DNA from: Nitrospirota bacterium
Lineage (GTDB): Bacteria > Nitrospirota > Nitrospiria > SBBL01 > JAADHI01
NCBI GenBank assembly: GCA_029261155.1
Contig: JAJDBW010000025.1
Coordinates: 1 to 64,000 of the forward strand
Length of the DNA stretch: 64,000 nt
Direction of reading: 5' to 3'
Positions 49,722 to 64,000 of this stretch are shown one piece after another; the first letter of the stretch is position 1; every line of letters begins with the position of its first letter. The notes below the pieces were generated by a model. That model was not told where the DNA came from. It saw only the letters and a list, made by a program, of their open reading frames with translations, and searched no databases. The position numbers and the translations under genes were made by a program.

Positions 49722-51344
49722 TTAAGAACTACAAGACAACATCGAACATCCTGCCCGCGTCCGCGCCCAGTCGGGACGTTTTTTTGCGTATTCTTCTTTG
49801 TCGATCTGCTCGTCATAGGGATGACGAAGACATTCCAACAAACTTTGAATCATAGAAGGATCGCCCGCTTCCGCCTTATCGATGGCGAGTTGAGCCAGAT
49901 AATTTCTGAATACATATTTGGGGTTCACGGCGTTCATTCGGGTACGTCGGCTCTCATTGTCCGAGCCCTCATCGCAAAGCCGGCTTTGGTATTGACGCAG
50001 CCAATTGGCAATTTGTGTGGTCTTTTCCTCTGTAAGCTGTTCTGGCATATAGTAGGCATCCCGAAGCGGGTCAAGAAGGCGATCATCCGGAATGTCATTC
50101 AAGTTGCCTGGCTGTACATCCATCTTCGCAAGCCCGCGATAAAAAATCGCCATGTCGGTTTCAACGAGTTGCAAGGTCGTGAGCAGATCAGCCATTAAGG
50201 TCTCGTCGGTTTTAGGATCAAACCCTTTCAACCCGAGCTTTTTGGCGATCATGGCATGCCAGCCCTTTTGATAAAAATCGGCATAGGCGTGTAAGGCTTC
50301 TTCTAATGGATCTGTATTTTCAAAGATCGGATGGATCGCGTTCGCCAATTGGAAGAGGTTCCATTGTGCGATCTGAGGCTGATGGCTGAACCGATAACGG
50401 CGACTGCCCGAATCCGTCGTATTCGGGGTCCAATCCGGATCGTAATCTTCCAGCCAACCGTAAGGACCGTAATCGATCGTCAACCCCAGGATAGACATAT
50501 TATCTGTATTCATGACACCATGGACAAATCCCACACGCATCCAATGGACGATCATTTCTGCGGTTTTTTGACAAACTTCATTGAACCACTTGATATACAC
50601 TTTTTTCGAAGGCTCGCCCAAATGCGGAAAATCAGTTTGAATCGTATAGTCGATCAATTGCTTTAGCACCTCTTTTTCGCCCCGCGCGGACAAAATCTGA
50701 AAATTCCCAAAGCGCGTAAACGATGGCGCGACACGACAGACAATGGCACCCGGCTCATTTTTCGGATGACCGTCGTAAAACATATCCCGTACAACCGATT
50801 CACCCGTCGTGATCAAACTCAAGGCACGGGTCGTCGGCACGCCCAAATGATACATCGCCTCGCTGCACAAAAACTCCCGAACAGACGACCGCAAAACCGC
50901 CAAGCCATCGGCCGTTCTCGAATAGGGCGTCGGTCCCGCCCCCTTCAATTGCAGGGCCCAACGATCCCCTTTCTTATTGACGATTTCCCCCAAATTGATC
51001 GCACGGCCATCTCCAAGTTGGCCTGCCCAATTGCCAAACTGATGTCCACCATAACAGGTGGCATAGGGGTCCATTCCAAGCGCCAAACGGTTTCCCGAAA
51101 AAACGGCCCTAAAATCCTCGGATTCGCATAAGCTTTTCGAGAGGCCTAACTCGCTTGCAAGTTCGGGGGAATAGGCCAACAAACGCGGCTGTGAAACCGG
51201 CTTTGGCAACACGCGCGAGTAACACGCTTTACTCACCTGGCGGCGAAAATTTTTAGTTTCGGGATCCGGGGGAAGGGACTGAACGAAGCGATTATCGAAG
51301 GACAGTTCATCCAAGGTCGTGATCGTGGCTCTAGAAGCTCTCAT
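49722..51344 (-). CDS. selO: Protein adenylyltransferase SelO
   Basis: The 540-residue pseudokinase-fold enzyme transfers AMP from ATP to Ser, Thr or Tyr hydroxyls, in other organisms on proteins of redox and carbon metabolism. Motifs include CYGGHQFGNWAGQLGDGRAI, LQLKGAGPTPYSRTADGLAV, LRSSVREFLCSEAM, GVMNTDNMSILGLTIDYGPY and the C-terminal SCSS, the redox-active Cys position that is selenocysteine in some animal homologues. The protein is complete. GGAGACC upstream fixes the ATG. It is convergent with the 48.1 kb gene. Confidence 0.95.
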   Translation of the reverse strand: MRASRATITTLDELSFDNRFVQSLPPDPETKNFRRQVSKACYSRVLPKPVSQPRLLAYSPELASELGLSKSLCESEDFRAVFSGNRLALGMDPYATCYGGHQFGNWAGQLGDGRAINLGEIVNKKGDRWALQLKGAGPTPYSRTADGLAVLRSSVREFLCSEAMYHLGVPTTRALSLITTGESVVRDMFYDGHPKNEPGAIVCRVAPSFTRFGNFQILSARGEKEVLKQLIDYTIQTDFPHLGEPSKKVYIKWFNEVCQKTAEMIVHWMRVGFVHGVMNTDNMSILGLTIDYGPYGWLEDYDPDWTPNTTDSGSRRYRFSHQPQIAQWNLFQLANAIHPIFENTDPLEEALHAYADFYQKGWHAMIAKKLGLKGFDPKTDETLMADLLTTLQLVETDMAIFYRGLAKMDVQPGNLNDIPDDRLLDPLRDAYYMPEQLTEEKTTQIANWLRQYQSRLCDEGSDNESRRTRMNAVNPKYVFRNYLAQLAIDKAEAGDPSMIQSLLECLRHPYDEQIDKEEYAKKRPDWARTRAGCSMLSCSS

Positions 51345-52926: not shown

Positions 52927-54393
52927 CTACTTTAATACCAGGTCGCTGAAGACGGCGGTTGCGGCGACCGATGCGTTGATGAAGGGTTTCGGCCAGATGC
53001 CAAGAAGGAGAACGCCCGCGATACTGACATACAGGGCGATCTTAAGTGGAAGTGAAATGGGGATCGGCGTGCTGTCTTTCGGTTCGACGGAATAGATTTT
53101 TTTAACAACGATCAAATAATAGTAAAAAGAGATCACCATATTAATCAGGCCCACTGCAACCAGTAAAATCAAATCCTGATGGACCGCCGCCGCGATCACA
53201 TAGACTTTTCCGATAAAGCCGGCAAGTGGCGGCACACCTGCTAATGAAAGTAAGAAAACCAACATCGCAAAGGCCATCAAAGGGGACCGCCTGTTCAAAC
53301 CTGCGAAGTCTTCAATATCGTCTTTTTGAGTTAGGTTCGAAAAAATGATCACCACGATAAAGGCACCCATATTCGCAAAAAGATAGGTCAGAATATAAAA
53401 AAGGATGGATTCGCTCCCCATTTTTGACCCGGCCGCCATGCCGATGAGGAGGGTTCCGATTTGTGCAATACCAGAGTATGCCAAAAGCCGTTTCATATTC
53501 TTTTGCGCGATGGCCGTGATGTTGCCATAAGTCATCGACAAAATCGAAATCCAAACCAACATCCACTGCCAGTCGGCTTTTAAGCCGATAAAGGTTCCAA
53601 AGGCCACCCTCAAAAAAAGGCCGAAGGTCGCAGCTTTGGGAACGATTGAAAGATAGGCCGTCACCGTAGTCGGCGCACCTTGATAGACATCGGGGACCCA
53701 AGTGTGAAAGGGTGCCGCACCGAGTTTATATCCGATGCCAATAAAAATAAACAAGAGGCCCATTAACAAACCAATCGAGGTTTCCGGGTGTTTTTGAGCG
53801 ATCTCTTCAAATAGAACCGTTCCGGTGGAACCGTAGATCAAACTCACGCCGTAAGTAATCAGACCTGCGGAGAGTGCGCCGAGGATGAAGAATTTTATCG
53901 CGGCCTCGTTCGATTTTAAATCGTCTCTCAAATAGGCCACCAATATATAGAAACCGAAGGTCGAAAATTCCAGCGTAATAAAGAGGGAAAGGAAATCGTT
54001 GGCGGAGACCATAAACATCATCCCCAATGCCGAGAAAATCAGGAGGAAATAATATTCACCCCGGAAATACGATGCCTTCTCAAGGTAATCGATCGAGGCC
54101 AAGGTCATTAATATCGTCGAGAGCAGAATAAAGATTTTAAAAAAGATTGCCAGCGGATCAAGAATGAACATGCTCCCAAAAGAGATTCCGCCGGTACCAT
54201 TCATCGCGTAGCTCCCTAAGAGCAGGGTAATGAGCGCCATGCCGACCATGGAGGCATATGCAATTTGTGGTTTAGGAATTTTAGGGAAAGCAAAGTCAAC
54301 AACCAACACGGTACAAGCCAGCAGGGTCATCCAAAGCTCTGGCGCGATGAGCGTGAGATTCAGGTCGGCTAAGCTGAGGACTGCAGGCGTCAT
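52927..54393 (-). CDS. nuoN: NADH-quinone oxidoreductase subunit N
   Basis: The ATG at 54393, preceded by GGAGGGGAT, gives 488 residues. This is one of the antiporter-like proton-pumping subunits of complex I, with about 14 transmembrane helices. Conserved charged regions include LEFSTFGFYILVAYL (Glu in TM5) and GYKLGAAPFHTWVPDVYQGA, followed by FG-type KRLLAYSGIAQIGTLLIGMA with the pumping Lys. It is the last gene of the operon, starting one base after the nuoM2 stop. Confidence 0.95.
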   Translation of the reverse strand: MTPAVLSLADLNLTLIAPELWMTLLACTVLVVDFAFPKIPKPQIAYASMVGMALITLLLGSYAMNGTGGISFGSMFILDPLAIFFKIFILLSTILMTLASIDYLEKASYFRGEYYFLLIFSALGMMFMVSANDFLSLFITLEFSTFGFYILVAYLRDDLKSNEAAIKFFILGALSAGLITYGVSLIYGSTGTVLFEEIAQKHPETSIGLLMGLLFIFIGIGYKLGAAPFHTWVPDVYQGAPTTVTAYLSIVPKAATFGLFLRVAFGTFIGLKADWQWMLVWISILSMTYGNITAIAQKNMKRLLAYSGIAQIGTLLIGMAAGSKMGSESILFYILTYLFANMGAFIVVIIFSNLTQKDDIEDFAGLNRRSPLMAFAMLVFLLSLAGVPPLAGFIGKVYVIAAAVHQDLILLVAVGLINMVISFYYYLIVVKKIYSVEPKDSTPIPISLPLKIALYVSIAGVLLLGIWPKPFINASVAATAVFSDLVLK

Positions 54394-54394
54394 T

Positions 54395-56023
54395 TTAAGA
54401 ATCCCCTCCGGCCTTGGCTTTGAGACCCGGTTGTTTTGCGACTGCGGTAGCGGATATTCCTGTTTCAATTCGCATAAGGATTGGCGATATCCCTTTTTCG
54501 ATCACCGTAATAAATTTCCCCGGAAAGATTCCAAAAAAGAGAATAAAAAACATCAGGAGCACGAAGGGAAGTCGATCAATCATTCCCCGCGCATCTTTTA
54601 AGTGAGCCATTGCGGGGTTCAAATCTCCAAAAAACATGGCCCGCGTCATTCGAAAATAATACGCCCAGGTAATTGTGACGCCAAGGGCTGCTAAGATGGT
54701 TTGAATCGGATATACCTCCCAAGCCCCCATAAAAACCATGATCTCTCCAACAAAGTTCATCCCACCCGGCAAACCGAAAGAGGCTGCGGCACCGACAACA
54801 AAACAAAAGGTCACGAAAGGCATACGATGAACTAATCCACCCAGAGAGGGGATATCCATCGTTTTACTTTGGTTATAAATATAACCAGCAAGCGCAAAAA
54901 GGAGGCCCATCGCCATGGCGTCGGCGAAGAGAAAAAAGACTGCCCCGGTCAGACTAATCATGTTCAAGGAAGCCAGGCCGAGAAAGATATAGCCCATATG
55001 CCCGACGCTGGAATAGCCAATAACGAATTTCGTATCTTTTTGAAGAAAGGCCACCAATCCGCCATAGAGGATATTAATAATGCAAAGGACGGCCACCCAG
55101 GGCATCCAGACCACTGTGGCTTCTGGAAAGAGATAGAAACAAATTCGAATGATGGTAAAGTGGCCCAGCTTTTTCAGCACACCGGCATGCATCATGCTGG
55201 CTGCAGGAGGTGCCGCGGCATAACCGACCGGCGACCAAGAATGAAAGGGGAAAATGGCCGCAATCGGAGCAAAGCCGATAAAAATAAGGAGAAATGCAGC
55301 CTCCTTCATGCCGAGTGTTAGAGCGCCCTGCTCCGCAATTGCGATAATATTAAAGGTATTCAAACCCGAATTCACATAAACCAACAAAATACCGAGAAGC
55401 GCAATAACCGCACCCAAGGAGAGGTAGAGTGTCAGCTTCATCGCCGCATATTCCTTGCTATTTTTATTGAAGTTGAGGATGAAGGCTGGCGAATCACGTT
55501 TCGAATCTCCGCCCATCGTTACATAGCCCGACATGTCCTTGTAGCCCTTGGTATGCCGTCCCCAAATGGCGATGAAGAGGTACATCGGTATAACGGAAAG
55601 CTCGTAAAAGAAAAAGAGGAAAAAGAGATCAAGGGACATGTAGACGCCCATCGTTGCCGAGCCGAGCACAAGCAGGTTGATGTAAAACTCTTTTTGGCGG
55701 TCGGCGATGTGCCAGGACACGAACACCCCGCAAAACATCAAGAGTGCAGAGGCCAGAACCATCGGTGTTCCGATACCGTCTACACCTAAGATAAAAGAAA
55801 TTCCAAGCGCTTCTGACCAGACGCGTTCCTGAACAAACTGAAAGCCGCCCTTTGCCGTATCGAAATGATAGAGCAAGTAGATCGAAAAAAGCAGGGAGAT
55901 GGCACTGAAGGCAACGGTAATTCCCTTCACAAGATCCCGCTGTTGGTTCGAGACGAAAAAGAGCAAGGTCGCACCAACAAAGGGCGCAAAGAGGATAATC
56001 GATAAGAGATAATCGTCGATCAT
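54395..56023 (-). CDS. nuoM: Second NuoM-type antiporter-like subunit (NuoM2)
   Basis: The ATG at 56023 overlaps the nuoM1 stop by 4 bp (ATGA), giving 542 residues. The protein is NuoM-like: FFYELSVIPMYLFIAIWG has the TM5 Glu, and DTKFVIGYSSVGHMGYIFLG corresponds to the DIKKLIAYSSISH region. The HTWLPDAHVEAPTAGS motif of NuoM1 reads HSWSPVGYAAAPPAASMMHA here, losing the Asp and His, so the copy is divergent around its channel. Having two NuoM proteins is the defining trait of the 2M type of complex I. Confidence 0.9.
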   Translation of the reverse strand: MIDDYLLSIILFAPFVGATLLFFVSNQQRDLVKGITVAFSAISLLFSIYLLYHFDTAKGGFQFVQERVWSEALGISFILGVDGIGTPMVLASALLMFCGVFVSWHIADRQKEFYINLLVLGSATMGVYMSLDLFFLFFFYELSVIPMYLFIAIWGRHTKGYKDMSGYVTMGGDSKRDSPAFILNFNKNSKEYAAMKLTLYLSLGAVIALLGILLVYVNSGLNTFNIIAIAEQGALTLGMKEAAFLLIFIGFAPIAAIFPFHSWSPVGYAAAPPAASMMHAGVLKKLGHFTIIRICFYLFPEATVVWMPWVAVLCIINILYGGLVAFLQKDTKFVIGYSSVGHMGYIFLGLASLNMISLTGAVFFLFADAMAMGLLFALAGYIYNQSKTMDIPSLGGLVHRMPFVTFCFVVGAAASFGLPGGMNFVGEIMVFMGAWEVYPIQTILAALGVTITWAYYFRMTRAMFFGDLNPAMAHLKDARGMIDRLPFVLLMFFILFFGIFPGKFITVIEKGISPILMRIETGISATAVAKQPGLKAKAGGDS

Positions 56024-57684
56024 TCGCCCTCGCCTTCCAAGAAGGTCACAAATTGGGTGTGCTCTTTTCGCGACGGAGATTTTAGTTCGACGTCCTGAAG
56101 CGGTGTCAATGCAACGGGGTTTAAGGTGGAACCTCCCTCTCCCGCGACTTTGCCGGGTTCGAAGCGAGTGGTGACATATTGAATCGAACCCTCCATCATC
56201 TTTAAAAAGGGTGCGGGGTAAATCCCTACCCAGAGAATCATGACCGTGAGCGCCGCGCAAATACCGAATTCTCGCGAGTCTAAATCGACCAGTGATGCAT
56301 TTTTTGGATTCGATAATTCACCCAGCATGGTTCGCTGAAAAAGCCACAAAAGATACGCGGCACCCAAGAGAATGCCGATAACCACGGGAATCACATACAT
56401 GGGATTTCGCTGCCAAGCCCCAAGTGCGATCATAAATTCGCCAACAAATCCATTGGTTCCCGGCATCCCCATCGAAGAAAGACTGATGACCAGGAAAAAG
56501 GTCGCCAAAACCGGGACCTGCTTACCCAGGCCGCCGAATTCGGAGATGGCCCGGGTATGGCGCCTTTCGTAGAGAAAACCAACGATCAAAAAAAGACCGC
56601 CTGTTGAAACCCCATGGTTCACCATTTGAATCAGTCCACCGGCAATACCACTTTCATTAAGCGTAAAAATGCCGATGATCACAAAACCCAAATGACTGAT
56701 CGACGAATAGGCGATTAATTTTTTAATGTCGTCCTGGGCCAAGGCCAGCCAGGCGCCATAAACAATACCGATTCCGCCTAGAAGCACCATCATCGGCATA
56801 AAATTCTCCGAGGCCTGCGGAAGGAGTGGGAGCGAAAAGCGGACGAACCCATAGGTCCCCATCTTCAATAGTACCCCTGCCAACAACACGCTGCCTGCAG
56901 TAGGTGCTTCGACATGGGCATCGGGCAACCAGGTATGGAAAGGGAACATCGGGACTTTGAAGGCGAACCCGAAAAAAAGGAAAATAAAAACCCAATTCTG
57001 TTTTTGTGCCGAAAGCGGTGCTCTGAGCAAATCGAGAAAGTCGAAGGAATATTTTTTTGGGAGTTGATTTGCCAGCGCATAATCGTGGTAATTGAGATAC
57101 AAAACAACAAAACCAACAAGCATCAAAACACTACCCAGTAAGGTGTAGAGTACAAACTTCAAGGATGCGTAATCTCGATTCGGACCGCCCCAAGTTTTAA
57201 TGAGGAAGTACATCGGTATGAGCATGATTTCCCATAAGAGAAAAAAGAGGAAGAGGTCGAGCGCGGCAAAAACTCCCACGATTGTTGTCTCGAGGACCAA
57301 CAGACAGATCATATACTGCTTTAGGTAAACGCCGACCCCTTTCCAAGAAAAGACGAAAATCAAAAATAAGAGAAAGGTCGTGAGCACTATCAGCAGGATA
57401 TTGATCCCATCAACGCCGACGTGATAGGACACACCCAAGGGAGTAATCCATGAAAGTTGTTCCACAAACTGCATGTCGGACTTTCCGCGTTCGAAGAAAG
57501 CGGGAAGGAGCAGAGAAAACAAAAAGGTCAGGAAACTTCCCCCCACAGCCATCATGCGAATCTGCTGTTCATCATTCACAAAGATAAGCACAATGGCGAC
57601 CAAAGCCGGCAAAAAAATAAGTAGGCTTAAAATTGGAAAACCGAGCTGTTGGGATGCGAAGGTTTGTTCCAGGGAATTCAGCAT
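56020..57684 (-). CDS. nuoM: NADH-quinone oxidoreductase subunit M (NuoM1)
   Basis: The ATG at 57684 gives 554 residues. The protein is a canonical NuoM: LLWEIMLIPMYFLI with the TM5 Glu, FHTWLPDAHVEAPTAGSVLL, LLKMGTYGFVRF with the TM8-region Lys, DIKKLIAYSSISHLGFVIIG and MVNHGVSTGGLFL. It forms an antiporter-like proton channel in the complex I membrane arm. A longer upstream frame is an artefact overlapping nuoL. It begins 8 bp after the nuoL stop. Confidence 0.95.
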   Translation of the reverse strand: MLNSLEQTFASQQLGFPILSLLIFLPALVAIVLIFVNDEQQIRMMAVGGSFLTFLFSLLLPAFFERGKSDMQFVEQLSWITPLGVSYHVGVDGINILLIVLTTFLLFLIFVFSWKGVGVYLKQYMICLLVLETTIVGVFAALDLFLFFLLWEIMLIPMYFLIKTWGGPNRDYASLKFVLYTLLGSVLMLVGFVVLYLNYHDYALANQLPKKYSFDFLDLLRAPLSAQKQNWVFIFLFFGFAFKVPMFPFHTWLPDAHVEAPTAGSVLLAGVLLKMGTYGFVRFSLPLLPQASENFMPMMVLLGGIGIVYGAWLALAQDDIKKLIAYSSISHLGFVIIGIFTLNESGIAGGLIQMVNHGVSTGGLFLIVGFLYERRHTRAISEFGGLGKQVPVLATFFLVISLSSMGMPGTNGFVGEFMIALGAWQRNPMYVIPVVIGILLGAAYLLWLFQRTMLGELSNPKNASLVDLDSREFGICAALTVMILWVGIYPAPFLKMMEGSIQYVTTRFEPGKVAGEGGSTLNPVALTPLQDVELKSPSRKEHTQFVTFLEGEGE

Positions 57685-57692
57685 AACAAGAC

Positions 57693-59645
57693 CTATCCGA
57701 GCCCCCATTTCCATACAATGAGATTGCTCGGAAGCTGATCTCGAAACAAGATATAGATGTTGGCTAAAATAAAGGCCCCAACGATGATGATCATGGCATA
57801 ATTGTGAACCGATCCCGTCTGGAGACGCTTGAATATACGGGCACCGACATGATTCATGTACCCGACAACATTGATGAGACCATAGACGATGTATTTCTCG
57901 AATATGTTGGAGAACCATCCTCCGCCAAAGACGCCTCTACCAACCGCATTGACCATTCCATCAATGACACGTACATCAAATTTCCGACAATAAGAAACCC
58001 AGAAAAGATGCACAGCGGCGGTGGCATTGACCAGTGGATCGATAATCAATAGGTCAAGGTATTCACTGAATTTTGAAACCCAAACCCCCGGTGCGATAAT
58101 TCCCTTTTTATAAAAACCTGTCACGCGCTCCTCATAAGCCGCGATGGGCTTATTGACAAGCCACATAAAACCCGGCACCGCCTTCCGGTAAAACCAATCG
58201 GTATCGACACTGATCGTGGGCTCGGGATCAAGTTTTTTGAGTAACATAAAAAAGCCGAGCGCCGTGAACAGCAACATCAAGAGCGCCCCGACCACATGGT
58301 CGCCTGTATAAGGATGATAGTCTGCCGCAAAGGGAAGGCTCTTATAAAGAAATTCGGGCCATACCCCAATGAAGACACACATAAACGCAGCCAGGGCCAT
58401 GCCGGCAATCATATTCGGAGGAGGATCCTTAGCGACGATACCGGCGTCTTTTGCAAAAAAAACATAGTAAGGCAGCTTGAGTCCGGTATGCAGAAAAGTT
58501 CCGGCTGAGGCAAGCGTCAGCAAGAGCGAAACCGCCGGACGGTGGATTTCAATCGCCGCAGAGATAACCATCGACTTCGTCACAAAACCCGAAAAAAGCG
58601 GGAAAGCGGAAATCGCAAAACCGCCGATCATGTAAAGCGAAAAAGTGATCGGCATGGTCTTGTATAAGCCACCCAGTTCCGTCAGTTTTTTCCGACCCGT
58701 CATAAAGACCACTGAGCTCATACCCATCATCAAAAGGCCTTTATAGAGAATATGGGCATAGGCATGCGAGACCGCACCGTTGAGTGCTAAGTCAGTACCC
58801 ATGCCCACCGCGGCGACCATGTAACCGACCTGGCTAATGATGTGATAGGCCAACAACCTCCGAATATCATTTTCAAGCACCGCATACACCACCCCATAGA
58901 GGGCCATGGTCACCCCCAATGGAACAAGGATCTCCGTTCCGGGAAATCCCCGCACTAATACATAGACTGCTGTTTTTGTGGTAAAGGCCGCCATAAAAAC
59001 GATACCGGGAATCGTCGATTCGGGATAAGCATCCGGTAGCCAGGCATGAAAAGGGGGAACGGCGGCGTTAATGAGAAAACCGATGAGGATTAAAGTCGGA
59101 CCCAAGCCGGTATGAGGCAGGGCATCAAAAGCGATCCCGCCGCCATTGGCGACGTAAATTGCAATTCCACCCAACAAGGCCACACCGCCAAAAGTGTGGA
59201 CCATCAGGTAGCGAATCCCCACCGCGGCCGATTCCGAGCCCCTGAACCAAACCAGAAAAACGGAAGTGAAGGCCATAATTTCCCAAAAAATAAAGAGGGT
59301 GAATAAGTCACCTGCAAAGACCGCCCCCAAAGAACTCCCGGCGTAGAGCAGCGCAGCCATGTGTTCTCCGTCTCGCTCGACGTGGAGCGAATACACCAAT
59401 CCAATGAGGGCGGCAATCGTAAAAACATAGCCAAAGACAAGACTGAGCTTATCGACCCGTCCTAAAATAAATTCCTGTCCCATAGAGGAAAGCACACCAT
59501 GGGTCCCTTCTATACTCATCAATAAGCCAAAAAAGGCCAACAGAGGGGCACCCAGAAGCACTATTTTTCTCGTCGTTCCCTTAAGGAAAGGTAGAAGCGC
59601 TGCGGCAATAAAGAAAAAGAGAGTTGGATGAATAAACTCAATCAT
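57693..59645 (-). CDS. nuoL: NADH-quinone oxidoreductase subunit L with extended lateral-helix region
   Basis: The 650-residue protein is longer than the usual NuoL of about 610. The antiporter core is clear: FIFWEIMAFTSVFLVWF, PPFHAWLPDAYPESTIPG, NDIRRLLAYHIISQVGY and HILYKGLLMMG. The C-terminal lateral helix and last helix end in the standard RLQTGSVHNYA. Before that, IIDPLVNA, VIDGMVNAVG and IVYGLINVVG recur at exact 26-residue steps (Asn540, 566, 592), one more than the two such units I expect in ordinary NuoL. The resemblance to MrpD/HyfB-type antiporters in the core is normal for the superfamily. It overlaps the preceding small gene by 8 bp. Confidence 0.93.
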   Translation of the reverse strand: MIEFIHPTLFFFIAAALLPFLKGTTRKIVLLGAPLLAFFGLLMSIEGTHGVLSSMGQEFILGRVDKLSLVFGYVFTIAALIGLVYSLHVERDGEHMAALLYAGSSLGAVFAGDLFTLFIFWEIMAFTSVFLVWFRGSESAAVGIRYLMVHTFGGVALLGGIAIYVANGGGIAFDALPHTGLGPTLILIGFLINAAVPPFHAWLPDAYPESTIPGIVFMAAFTTKTAVYVLVRGFPGTEILVPLGVTMALYGVVYAVLENDIRRLLAYHIISQVGYMVAAVGMGTDLALNGAVSHAYAHILYKGLLMMGMSSVVFMTGRKKLTELGGLYKTMPITFSLYMIGGFAISAFPLFSGFVTKSMVISAAIEIHRPAVSLLLTLASAGTFLHTGLKLPYYVFFAKDAGIVAKDPPPNMIAGMALAAFMCVFIGVWPEFLYKSLPFAADYHPYTGDHVVGALLMLLFTALGFFMLLKKLDPEPTISVDTDWFYRKAVPGFMWLVNKPIAAYEERVTGFYKKGIIAPGVWVSKFSEYLDLLIIDPLVNATAAVHLFWVSYCRKFDVRVIDGMVNAVGRGVFGGGWFSNIFEKYIVYGLINVVGYMNHVGARIFKRLQTGSVHNYAMIIIVGAFILANIYILFRDQLPSNLIVWKWGLG

Positions 59646-59952
59646 AATAATCTTCTTTTTTCATCAACAAAGCATGTCCGATATATTTCGATATCACGAT
59701 AATTAAGATCGTCGATATAAGCCCATAGGCTCCCATAAATGCAGGAATGTGGTCCCAGAAAAAAACGGCATGATGCCGATGAACAAAGATATCCCCCACG
59801 GATAAAACACCCAAGGTGATATAAAAACCCTTCTTCACCTTACGCAGGGTCTCCGGGTTTTCGAAGATCCCCTCGTAAAATTTTCCGAGTGGCGTCGTCG
59901 CCTTGGACTTCTGGCCTGCCACACTTTCTGTGTAAGGCACTTCTTCTTTCAT
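59638..59952 (-). CDS. Two-helix membrane protein between nuoK and nuoL
   Basis: The ATG at 59952, with AGGTGAT before it, gives 104 residues; a GTG 15 bp upstream would overlap nuoK. A hydrophilic N-terminus (1-40) is followed by two transmembrane helices (about 42-57 and 69-92). The loop between them contains HRHHAVFFWDHIP, and the C-terminus is EDYYD. It resembles no standard Nuo subunit. Overlap with both neighbours (8 bp with nuoL) indicates translation in step with the complex, so it may be an accessory subunit or assembly factor. Confidence 0.8.
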   Translation of the reverse strand: MKEEVPYTESVAGQKSKATTPLGKFYEGIFENPETLRKVKKGFYITLGVLSVGDIFVHRHHAVFFWDHIPAFMGAYGLISTILIIVISKYIGHALLMKKEDYYD

Positions 59953-59960
59953 CTCATCAC

Positions 59961-60263
59961 CTACCACTTCATCAAATTCAACTCGTCCACATTCGTCGTT
60001 GCTTTTCTTCGGAAGAGCATGACGATAATGGCCAGACCCACTGCCGCTTCCGCCGCGGCAATGGTAATGATAAAAAGCGAAATCACCTGCCCGTCCACTT
60101 CTCCGAAGTGATACGAAAAGGCCACTAAGTTGATATTGGCCGCATTGAGCATCAGCTCAATTGAAAACAAAATAATGAGGAAATTTTTTCGTATCAGGAT
60201 GCCGACCAAGCCAATCACAAACATCAGGGTCGATACGGTAATGTAGTAGGATATGGGAATCAT
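59961..60263 (-). CDS. nuoK: NADH-quinone oxidoreductase subunit K
   Basis: The 100-residue protein has three transmembrane helices. Conserved features are the Glu in NFLIILFSIELMLNAANINLV and the second Glu in TIAAAEAAVGLAIIV, both part of the proton path in the complex I membrane arm. The length and order after nuoJ are standard. Confidence 0.96.
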   Translation of the reverse strand: MIPISYYITVSTLMFVIGLVGILIRKNFLIILFSIELMLNAANINLVAFSYHFGEVDGQVISLFIITIAAAEAAVGLAIIVMLFRRKATTNVDELNLMKW

Positions 60264-60291: not shown

Positions 60292-60822
60292 TCATGTGAT
60301 GGGTTTCTCTTCGGGCTTCGATGTGGGGATCTTTTTTGCCAGCACCATCGCGCCGATCACGGCGCCCAATAAGATAATGCCCACCACCTCGAAGGGCAGG
60401 AGGTATTTATTAAACAAGGCCAGACCGACTTCTTCCGTATTACCCATGGGAGAAAGGGTCTTCCCTGCCTCAATCTTTCCCATAGAAAATAAAGTCGAAC
60501 GAAAAAGTCCCATGAGAATTTCGACCAAAAGAACGAGGCCAAAGAACAGGGCAATCCATATTTGCTTATGGAAAAAATGCTCCGTGGCCTTGAGATTCAA
60601 CAGCATTAAGACGAACAAATAGAGAACGAGGACCGCTCCCACATAAATGACGATCTGAATCGCAGCGATAAATTCGGCCTGAAGCAAAACGAACAGTCCG
60701 GCAACGTGGAGAAAAGTAGAGAGCAATGCGAGGGTACAATAGACTGGGCTACGAAGGCCGATGGTGAAAATGGAAGAAACAATAACGGCAAAAGCGAAAT
60801 AGAAAAAAAATATAGTCTGCAA
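60292..60822 (-). CDS. nuoJ: NADH-quinone oxidoreductase subunit J
   Basis: A TTG start with AGGAT upstream gives 176 residues and five transmembrane helices. The conserved segment LLQAEFIAAIQIVIYVGAVL followed by LYLFVLMLL is the TM3 region whose pi-bulge couples quinone chemistry to pumping. The C-terminal tail is soluble. It starts 9 bp after nuoI and 28 bp before nuoK. Confidence 0.96.
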   Translation of the reverse strand: MQTIFFFYFAFAVIVSSIFTIGLRSPVYCTLALLSTFLHVAGLFVLLQAEFIAAIQIVIYVGAVLVLYLFVLMLLNLKATEHFFHKQIWIALFFGLVLLVEILMGLFRSTLFSMGKIEAGKTLSPMGNTEEVGLALFNKYLLPFEVVGIILLGAVIGAMVLAKKIPTSKPEEKPIT

Positions 60823-60831
60823 AAGTGGATC

Positions 60832-61422
60832 CTATTCCGTATTTTGCTCCGGTTCCACCTTTGCGACGGGTTCCGGAATTTCGCCGTGTAAGGACGGAAA
60901 GCGGTATCGGTACTCGCTGGCTATTTCGTCCTCGCCCTCTTGATGGTGTGCAACGAGGTAACGCTTCGCCTCCTGGTAGGCCAGGTCTCCAATTTCGTAA
61001 AGCTTGGGTTTATCAAATATCAGGTCACGCTTGTTGTTGGTTGAATATTCGTAGATCTTTGTCATGCCCAAGGCATTTACGGGGCAGGCTTCAACACAAA
61101 AACCACAAAAGACGCACTTGGTGATGTCGATATCAAACTCAGTCGCATAACGAACGACTTCATTCTCCTCCTCTTCGACCGCACTCACAACACGAATACA
61201 ATGCGAAGGACAAGCGGCTTCGCAGAGATCGCATCCGACGCATCGTTCTTTTCCATCTTCATACTTCAAGAGACACAAGGCACCCCGATGCGTATCCGGA
61301 AGCGGGACTTTCGCGTGCGGATACTGAACCGTCACCTCTTTCACAAAATAGTGCGAAAAGGTGGTCTTTAAGCCCTTTACAATCTCCTTAAATAAGACAT
61401 TGTGGAGTAGCTTTTTAACCAT
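60832..61422 (-). CDS. nuoI: NADH-quinone oxidoreductase subunit I
   Basis: The ATG at 61422 gives 196 residues and overlaps the nuoG stop by 8 bp. Two [4Fe-4S] motifs are present, CVGCDLCEAACPSHCI and CVFCGFCVEACPVNAL, which carry clusters N6a and N6b to the quinone site. The N-terminal amphipathic segment and RGALCLLKYEDGKERC lead-in are standard. It normally follows nuoH, which is missing between nuoG and nuoI here. Confidence 0.96.
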   Translation of the reverse strand: MVKKLLHNVLFKEIVKGLKTTFSHYFVKEVTVQYPHAKVPLPDTHRGALCLLKYEDGKERCVGCDLCEAACPSHCIRVVSAVEEEENEVVRYATEFDIDITKCVFCGFCVEACPVNALGMTKIYEYSTNNKRDLIFDKPKLYEIGDLAYQEAKRYLVAHHQEGEDEIASEYRYRFPSLHGEIPEPVAKVEPEQNTE

Positions 61423-64000
61423 CACTCGACCCCGCTTCTTCCGTAGGGCTTTCTTCGATCGTATCCGATGCTGCCGTGGTTGTCTCCGTTTTGGATGGAA
61501 CGACATCGAGCATAATCGGCTTAGTCGATTCGATTGCAACCGGTCCAGTGTTTCGATAAATCACATGGGTCTTTGGATCGATTTGTGCCACGAGGAAATC
61601 TTTAAGCGGTGGTTCGGCAAAATGAACGGGGAATTGCACCAGCCCTGCTGGAAGGGCCGCATTGACTTCAACGGATATTTCCATCGTACCTTGCGCTGAA
61701 GACAGCTTCACACCGTCGCCGGTTTCGAGACCCATTGCGCTCGCATCGGCTTCTCCAATTTGAAGATTTCGATTATTGTAAATGCCCATCAAGTTTTCGT
61801 CGCGCGTCGACAGCTTTCCGCTATGGTAGAGCACTTGCTCCAAGGAAAGCTGGAACGCCGTTTCCGTCTGTGGCCTGCCTTTTTCCTGGGCATAGCGTTC
61901 CGTAACTTCGGAGACAAAATCGTTTTGGAGATACGAATCGGCCTGCACCGGCGGCCGCTCGCTTCGGTAATACCCCGGCACACACTGCGAAATTTCGTTT
62001 TTAATTTCTTCCGAACTTCGATAAAGAAGCGGATGGGCCAAATGTTTCGACAAATCGGAAAAAACCTTCCAGTCCGGCCGAACCTCGCCTCGAGGATCGA
62101 AGGCTTCGGAAACCCCTTGGGTTTGTCCAGCCATATTGGTAAAACTACCTTCTTTTTCGGCAAATGTCGCAACGGGGAGCACAAAGTCCGCCATCTCACC
62201 CAGTGCATTCATGAAAGGGTCTTGAACGACAATAAGATCAATCTTCTCTAAGGCTTCCCGAACGCGCATCGAAGTGGGTAGGCTTTCGAGCGGATTTTCA
62301 CCCACCACATACAAGGCCTTAATCTCTCCGCGATGCGCCGCTTCGATCATTTCGGGGAGGCTTAATCCGTTTCCTTTTTCCCCTGCATCGGGCAGGCTTG
62401 AATGCCAGTCCGATGCGAAACGCTGCCGCGCATCATCGGACGCATAAGCGTGCTGACCGGGCAGAAATTCTGAAACGCCGCCCATGTCGACCGCCCCTTG
62501 CTCATTATTCTCTTCGCAGACCGGCAGAATACCTGCGCCTTCTTTTTCGAAGAGACCGGATACCAAGGCCAGATCGATCAAGCGGAGGACATTGTCATAG
62601 GCGCCGACTTCCGAGACGATGGATTCGCCCCAAATGAGCGTGCCGCGTTTCGATTGCGCCAAGAGGCTCGCTGCTTCAACGATTTGCTCCCAGGAGAGTC
62701 CGCAGGCATCCACAATGGCTTCTTTCGAAAGTGAAGCGAGCGCCCCTTGGAGCGCCTTGAAGGCCTCAGGGTGTTTTTGCGAGAAAGCACTGTGGCACAA
62801 GCCTTCTTCAACAACAGCCTTAACCAGGCCCTGAATAAACATCGATTCGGAATTGAGTTTAATTTGTAAGGGATGGGTCGCCAATGCCATCAACTTGGTC
62901 TTCCAGGTTTCAGTCACGATCAATTTACCGCCGAATTCGGCCATGGCCTTTTTGACACGGAGCGCCAAGATGGGGTTGGTCTCCGTCAAGTTTGAGCCCA
63001 CCATCAAAATGACATCCGAAAGGGCCACCTGCTCATAAGAACTGGTCGCCGAACCAATGCCCAAGGCGTGCTGCATCGCCAGGACGGAATTCATATGACC
63101 ATAGCGCGCGGCGCTGTCGATATTGTTCGAACCCAAAACAGAACGCATGAGACGTTGAAAAAGGTATACCGCTTCGTTTGTGCAACGTCCGCTGATTAAG
63201 CCTGCAATCGCGCGTCCGCCATGTTGCTCTTTAATTTGCTTCAGTCGTTTTCCAATTTGAGCCAAGGCTTGGAACCAGGGAATTTCGATATGCTCCCCTT
63301 CAACCTTGGTTAAAGGTTTGGTCAATCGTTTGTCACTCTGCACATATTCGAAACCAAAGCGTCCACGCACGCAAATACCGCCATGACTGTCACCCGGCCC
63401 AACTTCGTAACCCAACTTGTTCGTATAAGACAACTCGGAGGTCACAACCACAATCGAACGCTCATTGGTTTCGAGGATGATCTGGCACCCATCGGAACAA
63501 AAGCTACAGGTGGTTTCCGTTTTTTTAAGTTGCCAAGGCTTGAAGGTATATTTCGAGAACTTGCTGACAATGGCGCCGACCGGACAGACCGCCAGGCAGT
63601 CGCCGCAGAATTCGCAGAAAAGGGCCTCGCCGCCATGTGCACCAACATGGGTTTTTTTGTCTTTTTTATAGAAGCACAAGGCATCGACCAACTGGACTTC
63701 TTTGCAGACATTAATACATTGCCCGCAGAGAATACAGCGCTCCATATTAAAATCGAGGCCGATGCTTCTGGTGTCTTCGGGGATGACTTTTCTTTTCCCC
63801 TTTTTAATATCGTAAACTTCAAGGTCGTAGGCCATGTCTTGGAGTTCGCATTGACCATCTTTATCGCAAACGGGACAGTCCAGTGGATGAGTTACCAAAT
63901 GTTTTTCGACGGCCTTTTTCCGAGCCTCTTCCATTTTTTCGGTATCGGTATGGATCACCATGCCATCTTCTGCACGGGCGGTGCAGGAACGCACATTGTT
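61415..64000 (-). CDS. nuoG: NADH-quinone oxidoreductase subunit G, 5' end beyond the window
   Basis: The frame is open to the window edge, giving at least 861 residues; only the very N-terminus of the [2Fe-2S] domain is missing (CTARAEDGMV is its end). The His-Cys3 motif THPLDCPVCDKDGQCE and two [4Fe-4S] motifs (CILCGQCINVC, CEFCGDCLAVCP) follow. CSFCSDGCQ with a later Cys in GGICVRGRF forms the extra N7 cluster site found in many bacterial NuoG. The rest is the molybdopterin-oxidoreductase-like domain without visible cofactor-specific features. It is the first visible nuo gene. Confidence 0.95.
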   Translation of the reverse strand, partial: NNVRSCTARAEDGMVIHTDTEKMEEARKKAVEKHLVTHPLDCPVCDKDGQCELQDMAYDLEVYDIKKGKRKVIPEDTRSIGLDFNMERCILCGQCINVCKEVQLVDALCFYKKDKKTHVGAHGGEALFCEFCGDCLAVCPVGAIVSKFSKYTFKPWQLKKTETTCSFCSDGCQIILETNERSIVVVTSELSYTNKLGYEVGPGDSHGGICVRGRFGFEYVQSDKRLTKPLTKVEGEHIEIPWFQALAQIGKRLKQIKEQHGGRAIAGLISGRCTNEAVYLFQRLMRSVLGSNNIDSAARYGHMNSVLAMQHALGIGSATSSYEQVALSDVILMVGSNLTETNPILALRVKKAMAEFGGKLIVTETWKTKLMALATHPLQIKLNSESMFIQGLVKAVVEEGLCHSAFSQKHPEAFKALQGALASLSKEAIVDACGLSWEQIVEAASLLAQSKRGTLIWGESIVSEVGAYDNVLRLIDLALVSGLFEKEGAGILPVCEENNEQGAVDMGGVSEFLPGQHAYASDDARQRFASDWHSSLPDAGEKGNGLSLPEMIEAAHRGEIKALYVVGENPLESLPTSMRVREALEKIDLIVVQDPFMNALGEMADFVLPVATFAEKEGSFTNMAGQTQGVSEAFDPRGEVRPDWKVFSDLSKHLAHPLLYRSSEEIKNEISQCVPGYYRSERPPVQADSYLQNDFVSEVTERYAQEKGRPQTETAFQLSLEQVLYHSGKLSTRDENLMGIYNNRNLQIGEADASAMGLETGDGVKLSSAQGTMEISVEVNAALPAGLVQFPVHFAEPPLKDFLVAQIDPKTHVIYRNTGPVAIESTKPIMLDVVPSKTETTTAASDTIEESPTEEAGSSDG

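Follow-up and report, generated by a model that had tools for sequence, protein, structure and literature searches.

A 2M complex I homologue from a Nitrospirota bacterium with an apparently mosaic MrpD2 subunit in place of NuoL

Introduction

Complex I homologues with two NuoM subunits (2M type), for which Chadwick et al. 2018 is reportedly the founding paper, are cited as raised-stoichiometry proton pumps that enable ferredoxin reduction from poor donors. Two adjacent NuoM-family genes lie in the first 64,000 nucleotides of contig JAJDBW010000025.1 (hereafter the window; the full contig, C18, has 173,947 bp) of a Nitrospirota bacterium known from a draft metagenome assembly (GCA_029261155.1; 3.56 Mb, 90 contigs, 95.6% complete). 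The locus raises the question of whether its second NuoM (NuoM2) adds a proton pump, and of what kind of complex I surrounds it. A first-pass annotation, made from the sequence alone, had read it as nuoL followed by two NuoM subunits that could both pump, in a 2M complex moving extra protons and thus suited to pushing electrons uphill.

Three published systems are relevant for comparison: the clade-3 2M complex I of Nitrospira (PMC6606698, PMC12342949), which is distinguished by lacking nuoE, nuoF and nuoH, by its large nuoG and by having nuoC and nuoD as two genes (PMC6606698); Complex_I_3 of Ca. Manganitrophaceae (PMC9040806; L086, L087); and the rhizobial green complex I (S. meliloti pSymA, L124; PMC9040806). 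By using these and a set of 58 related genomes (18 in the order; the labels Nitrospira-type and Leptospirillum-type for families within the class are presumptive), we found that the operon encodes a Nitrospiria-type (clade 3) 2M complex I homologue. The 2M type has already been published; new here is a variant without MrpD1 and with a hybrid, over-long MrpD2.

Results

The NuoM pair and the subunit preceding it

The four genes on which the assignment turns are the following (TM, transmembrane helix).

52927-54393, minus strand: nuoN, 488 aa (TIGR01770, 429 bits; TM7 Lys present in GIGYKLG)
54395-56023, minus strand: nuoM2, 542 aa (TIGR01972, alignment, tree)
56020-57684, minus strand: nuoM1, 554 aa, ATG at 57684 (TIGR01972; canonical NuoM key residues all kept)
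57693-59645, minus strand: mrpD2, 650 aa, in the place of nuoL (NF009310, trees, residues)

The two NuoM genes, joined by a 4-bp ATGA overlap at 56020-56023 ('...GGCGAATGATCGACG'), have exactly the coordinates first reported and precede nuoN; both exceed the TIGR01972 (NuoM) cut-off of 263.8 bits, with 592.6 for NuoM1 and 400.7 for NuoM2. The pair is not a product of chance, since it is conserved, with NuoM2 matches in 50 of the 58 related genomes. Of 148 genomes sampled from the phylum, 39 had NuoM2, all inside the class Nitrospiria; with no homologue found outside this class in the sample, the comparison covers the 2M clade of Nitrospiria. The named relatives are Nitrospirota metagenome-assembled genomes, including Candidatus Manganitrophaceae and Ca. 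Manganitrophus, in line with the similar architectures published for Nitrospira (PMC6606698) and Ca. Manganitrophaceae (PMC9040806). A grouping of NuoM2 with stand-alone antiporters or hydrogenase subunits, named beforehand as the observation that would contradict a 2M complex, was looked for in a 41-sequence tree. NuoM2 stayed inside NuoM, apart from stand-alone antiporters and hydrogenase-type subunits, in a clade (100/100) with the NuoM2 of other families, Nitrospira included, and adjoining the single NuoM of Manganitrophus Complex_I_1. Two NuoM genes thus stand between NuoN and the subunit bearing the lateral helix (HL), and the 2M label is right.

The name nuoL for the gene preceding the pair had to be given up. 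The C-terminus of the product of 57693-59645 is NuoL-like and suggested this identity, which was rejected by family scores and trees: the 650-aa protein scored 708 bits with NF009310 (MrpD-type Na+/H+ antiporter subunit D) versus 118.6 with NDH_I_L, and in the 41-sequence tree it fell in the MrpD2 clade (100/100), away from NuoL. The distal subunit is therefore MrpD2, and the NuoL of other 2M complexes is absent. AlphaFold2 models of MrpD2 and NuoM2, built from 8-9 sequences, were poor (mean predicted local distance difference test 55.7 and 46.6, about 33 in the HL) and were not used.

Proton-channel residues

An alignment to E. coli NuoM shows E144, K234, K265, H322, H348 and E407 retained in NuoM1, and E144, K265, H322 and E407 in NuoM2, where K234 is replaced by Ile. 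In the numbering of NuoM2 itself, Glu141 (TM5), Lys285 (TM8) and Glu427 (TM12) are kept, the TM7 Lys is Ile254, and an extra loop of about 30 aa follows TM5. The corresponding codons, and that of MrpD2 discussed below, were located by alignment.

55262-55264, minus strand: Ile254 codon of nuoM2, at the E. coli NuoM Lys234 position
59067-59069, minus strand: Asn193 codon of mrpD2, at the E. coli NuoL Lys229 position

The TM5 Glu is indeed present in both NuoM proteins, but to conclude from it that both pump leaves out its TM7 partner, since NuoM E144 and K234 are regarded as an ion pair opening during pumping (PMC9271201), and these Glu/Lys positions are conserved across MrpA, MrpD, NuoL, NuoM and NuoN (PMC13073174). 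The replacement is not peculiar to the window: among 53 distinct NuoM2-type sequences, 51 have Ile and one, the NuoM of Manganitrophus Complex_I_1, has Leu, the remaining one (L105) being a disrupted reading frame whose aligned TM7 residue is unreliable. NuoM1 of the same operons keeps the Lys. No mention of this class-wide change was found in the literature searched, which did not include Chadwick et al. 2018.

The second substitution, Asn at the NuoL K229 position of MrpD2, is shared by all the relatives checked, by two rhizobia and by the Mrp operon of the same genome; MrpD1 keeps Lys there. As a result, the TM7 Lys is found only in NuoM1 and NuoN, two of the four antiporter-like subunits of the window operon. 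In Complex_I_3, three of the five such subunits have it, and in the Nitrospira 2M complex three of the four, which equals the count for ordinary complex I. Since NuoM2 lacks the TM7 Lys in the whole class, and MrpD2 lacks it as well, the predicted extra protons are not backed by the residues, and a contribution of NuoM2 to them appears doubtful; that NuoM2 would require this Lys is extrapolated from E. coli.

Two further variations were observed in relatives. In a Manganitrophus-type complex I that includes NuoH, the one NuoM (L117, 4643-6244) is NuoM2-like, with Leu for the TM7 Lys; therefore, a complex I with such a protein as its only NuoM exists. In NuoM1 of Nitrospira/Leptospirillum-type 2M operons (L091, 12045-13622; L093, 5346-6944; L094, 5384-7135), two residues of TM8 are deleted just before the conserved Lys, a deletion which is not present in the window.

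Length of the lateral helix and origin of MrpD2

The HL of MrpD2, counted from the ISxD motif to QTG, is delimited as follows.

57822-58214, minus strand: HL segment of MrpD2, ISVD to QTG, 131 residues (motif-to-motif count)
58002-58079, minus strand: extra 26-residue HL module, approximate, at the junction of green-type and 2M-type sequence (mosaic breakpoint near HL residue 70, register shift 26)

Rhizobial MrpD2 has 79 residues in this segment, every Nitrospirota green or 2M MrpD2 examined has 105, including those of the family's green complexes with a single NuoM, and the window has 131. The steps are of exactly 26 residues, so that the window HL exceeds its 2M relatives by 26 and the rhizobial green protein by 52; NuoL of the Nitrospira 2M complex shows likewise a 26-column gain over canonical NuoL, and the self-similarity of the window HL peaks at an offset of 26. 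A 31-residue insertion was considered and rejected, as the count between fixed motifs is exactly 26. A recent tandem duplication was also rejected: nucleotide identity at the 78-bp offset is only 36.5%, versus 22-27% at neighbouring offsets, and the repeat is therefore old. A helix rises 1.5 Å per residue, 26 residues thus spanning about 39 Å, which would be close to the expected spacing between antiporter-like subunits. The HL may therefore be a modular clamp whose length steps with that of the arm.

The two parts of MrpD2 have different relatives. The antiporter domain groups with the green-complex MrpD2 of the same family (97/96 in a 24-row tree, 93/89 in a 32-row tree), and its descent with the family's 2M MrpD2 was rejected: approximately unbiased (AU) tests on this domain excluded a single clade of all 2M MrpD2 (p = 8e-8) and, weakly, a grouping of the window with the family's 2M proteins (p = 0.035). 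In its distal part (residues 573-612), the HL shares 58-80% identity with the 2M MrpD2 of the order, or 52% in the case of G010, and 18-28% with the green proteins. The best two-template alignment, with scores up to 420, is green up to HL residue 70 and then 2M shifted by 26, versus at most 354 for one 2M relative with one 26-residue gap, and up to 398 for two 2M-type templates; because of this last score, a green origin can be assigned to the antiporter domain with more confidence than to the proximal HL. As judged from the sequences, MrpD2 thus appears to be a mosaic in which the antiporter domain of a green complex is joined to the lateral helix of a 2M complex, one 26-residue module out of register, the simplest account being recombination between the mrpD2 genes of the two complexes. 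Swapping of MrpD2 parts seems to be recurrent, since Manganitrophus-type genomes likewise have the HL in common and differ in the antiporter domain.

Operon layout and missing subunits

The minus-strand gene order is nuoA-B-C-D-G-I-J-K, small open reading frame (ORF), mrpD2, nuoM1, nuoM2, nuoN, with nuoD, nuoC, nuoB and nuoA upstream of nuoG and with nuoC and nuoD separate. Besides the genes listed above, the window contains:

59638-59952, minus strand: small membrane ORF, 104 aa from ATG, 109 from GTG (no Pfam/NCBIfam family)
59961-60263, minus strand: nuoK, 100 aa (family search and comparison with relatives)
60292-60822, minus strand: nuoJ, 176 aa (family search)
60832-61422, minus strand: nuoI, 196 aa, directly after nuoG (family search, relatives' operons)
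61415-64000, extending beyond the window to contig position 64225, minus strand: nuoG, 936 aa, enlarged (family search)

The window NuoK shares 82-93% identity with the NuoK of the family's 2M operons, and about 50% with that of its green operons. The small ORF has a homologue in green complex I and in Manganitrophus-type clusters, where it separates MrpD1 from MrpD2; here it has been kept, and MrpD1, expected between it and nuoK, has been lost. In fact, the order is nuoK-MrpD1-MrpD2-M1-M2-N in relatives of the same family and of family f2, nuoK-MrpD1-small ORF-MrpD2-M1-M2-N in Manganitrophus-type genomes and nuoK-NuoL-M1-M2-N in the Nitrospira and Leptospirillum types; a 2M operon without MrpD1 is found also in another family (G009). 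In a reduced relative (G010; L118, 9268-12822), MrpD2 and NuoM1 are kept, with no NuoM2 or NuoN adjoining.

The clade-3 features are all present in the window operon, which lacks nuoE, nuoF and nuoH and has an enlarged nuoG. In every 2M operon examined that has both genes, nuoI directly follows nuoG, with no nuoH between them, as reported for Nitrospira (PMC6606698). No match to PF00146 (NuoH, the quinone-chamber subunit of canonical complex I) was found anywhere in the 95.6% complete draft, and NuoH is present in 57 of the 58 genomes compared, which encode it in a second complex I. This genome lacks the green operon, which all other family members checked possess; two genes that adjoin it in relatives, for MoeA and for a 399-aa protein next to nuoN, were assembled here without neighbouring nuo genes. 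A loss of the second complex I is therefore likely, although the draft is incomplete. Two stand-alone NuoF-like proteins, on C32 (L114, 8890-10188) and C25 (L115, 9676-11082), are encoded outside any nuo operon; they have FMN and 4Fe-4S domains and no nuoE beside them, and are possible partners of the 2M complex. A separate nuoF is found also in N. moscoviensis (PMC6606698).

A gene for SelO, a protein adenylyltransferase, lies on the minus strand at 49722-51344 of the window.

Comparison with known systems

The operon resembles the clade-3 2M complex of Nitrospira in the position of NuoM2 between NuoM1 and NuoN, in the NuoM2 clade, in the hallmark gene content and in the lengthening of the HL by a 26-residue unit; it differs in having MrpD2 for NuoL and two extra HL modules versus one. 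With Complex_I_3 it shares a long-HL MrpD2 for NuoL, two NuoM, one NuoN and the small ORF by MrpD2. The 26-residue HL insertion of that complex relative to rhizobia is present and exceeded (52 longer, 131 residues versus 105), but its set of two MrpD, two NuoM and NuoN is not found, since MrpD1 is lacking (four antiporter-like subunits versus five), and the antiporter domain of MrpD2 is of green type. The rhizobial green complex, with the order nuoK-MrpD1-84-aa ORF-MrpD2-M-N in S. meliloti, shares the MrpD2 homologue with Asn at the TM7 position and the small ORF before it; its full set of features, MrpD1 and MrpD2 for NuoL, a single NuoM, NuoE/F/H and an HL of 79, is not matched by the window.

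The same genome encodes on C89 (L010, 7831-15185) an Mrp Na+/H+ antiporter operon which opens with an extra MrpD1, a small ORF and a 748-aa MrpD2-MrpA fusion, the trio of green complex I. The tandem of MrpD1, small ORF and MrpD2-like domain is thus similar, but Mrp has no electron-transfer subunits, and its MrpD2-like domain is fused to an MrpA-type C-terminus with no such HL. On C15 (L012, 7061-13053), two MrpD-like proteins and c-type and b-type cytochromes adjoin a bd-like oxidase that includes a cytochrome c domain; this oxidase resembles TO_2, a terminal oxidase reported only from Ca. Manganitrophaceae (PMC9040806).

Discussion

The explanation that we consider probable is that of a clade-3 2M homologue with a mosaic MrpD2 and two canonical channels, working in reverse from quinol to ferredoxin. 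The peripheral subunits B, C, D, I and the large G are kept, and the NADH-binding module is not encoded with them; NuoG would be the entry point, since the FMN subunits are absent from the operon. Driven by the proton-motive force, the enzyme would supply reduced ferredoxin to the ferredoxin-dependent carboxylases of the genome. Genes for 2-oxoacid:ferredoxin oxidoreductase, which needs low-potential ferredoxin, are present. Within the arm, NuoM1 and NuoN would carry the canonical coupling, and NuoM2 and MrpD2 would be spacers or proton pathways of a modified mechanism. Reverse electron transport is a published hypothesis (PMC6606698, PMC9040806), and this half of the earlier idea of uphill electron pushing is plausible; its other half, a drive by extra protons, is not supported by the residues, the TM7 Lys being missing. 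Near a 2-oxoacid:ferredoxin oxidoreductase on C58 (L011, 5295-11574), a DabA inorganic-carbon transporter subunit is encoded beside two antiporter-like proteins.

Several points weigh against this explanation. NuoM2 keeps the TM5 Glu, TM8 Lys and TM12 Glu, and other groups may compensate for the TM7 Lys, making it dispensable; the direction of electron flow is one that we infer; the AU test on the HL alone leaves a grouping with green unrejected (p = 0.31), and the pairing of two different 2M-type relatives that reached 398 has G009 on its left. Moreover, the window HL is one module longer than in relatives having one subunit more, so that its length and the number of encoded subunits do not match, the longest HL being found in an operon without MrpD1. 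A fault of the draft metagenome assembly also keeps a small residual probability.

The intact TM5, TM8 and TM12 residues would be expected if every antiporter-like subunit, NuoM2 included, pumped, with more protons per electron pair, as in the published 2M hypothesis (PMC9040806, PMC6606698); the conservation of NuoM2 throughout the class and a lateral helix lengthened to hold an extra subunit agree with it. We consider it unlikely, as the TM7 Lys is absent from all readable Nitrospiria NuoM2 and from MrpD2, while NuoM1 in the same operons keeps it. The mismatch in HL length could instead be explained by a five-subunit arm, in which an MrpD1 acting in trans, such as the 503-aa MrpD1 of the C89 Mrp operon (65% identical to green MrpD1), would sit between MrpD2 and NuoM1: the HL of 131 is one quantum above the 105 of 2M and five-subunit relatives, and the extra module looks green-type, from a subunit working with MrpD1. 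However, the C89 protein belongs to its own complete Mrp operon, as in G003, rhizobial green complexes hold MrpD1 with the shortest HL (79) and no gene adjoining the window operon encodes MrpD1, which makes this arrangement quite improbable.

An assembly or binning artefact joining green and 2M sequences would account at once for the hybrid MrpD2 and for the seeming absence of both MrpD1 and the green complex, and the fragmented state of the draft and the absence of an operon otherwise general in the family are in its favour. Yet it needs two distinct misjoins, one following nuoK and one within the HL, both in frame with tight gene overlaps; the downstream genes are of 2M type, the two flanking loci of the green operon were assembled without it, and G009 independently has a 2M operon without MrpD1. 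An artefact is thus very improbable. Returning to the clade-3 mosaic, a wider formulation would make it the lineage's only complex I, without NuoH, with two canonical Lys/Glu channels (NuoM1 and NuoN), the extra subunits being spacers or altered conduits in an arm measured by an HL that evolves in 26-residue modules through out-of-register recombination between coexisting complexes; taken as a whole, it seems to us rather a long shot.

If the added NuoM lacks, in the whole class, a Lys needed by canonical channels, the energetic argument for 2M complexes needs a direct test, because Nitrospira would have three complete channels, a count not exceeding that of ordinary complex I, and the window operon two. 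On the other hand, the apparently mosaic MrpD2 would illustrate one way in which complex I arms are rebuilt, and the 26-residue quantisation of the HL, which holds for two subunit types unrelated to each other, provides a ruler from which arm length can be read.

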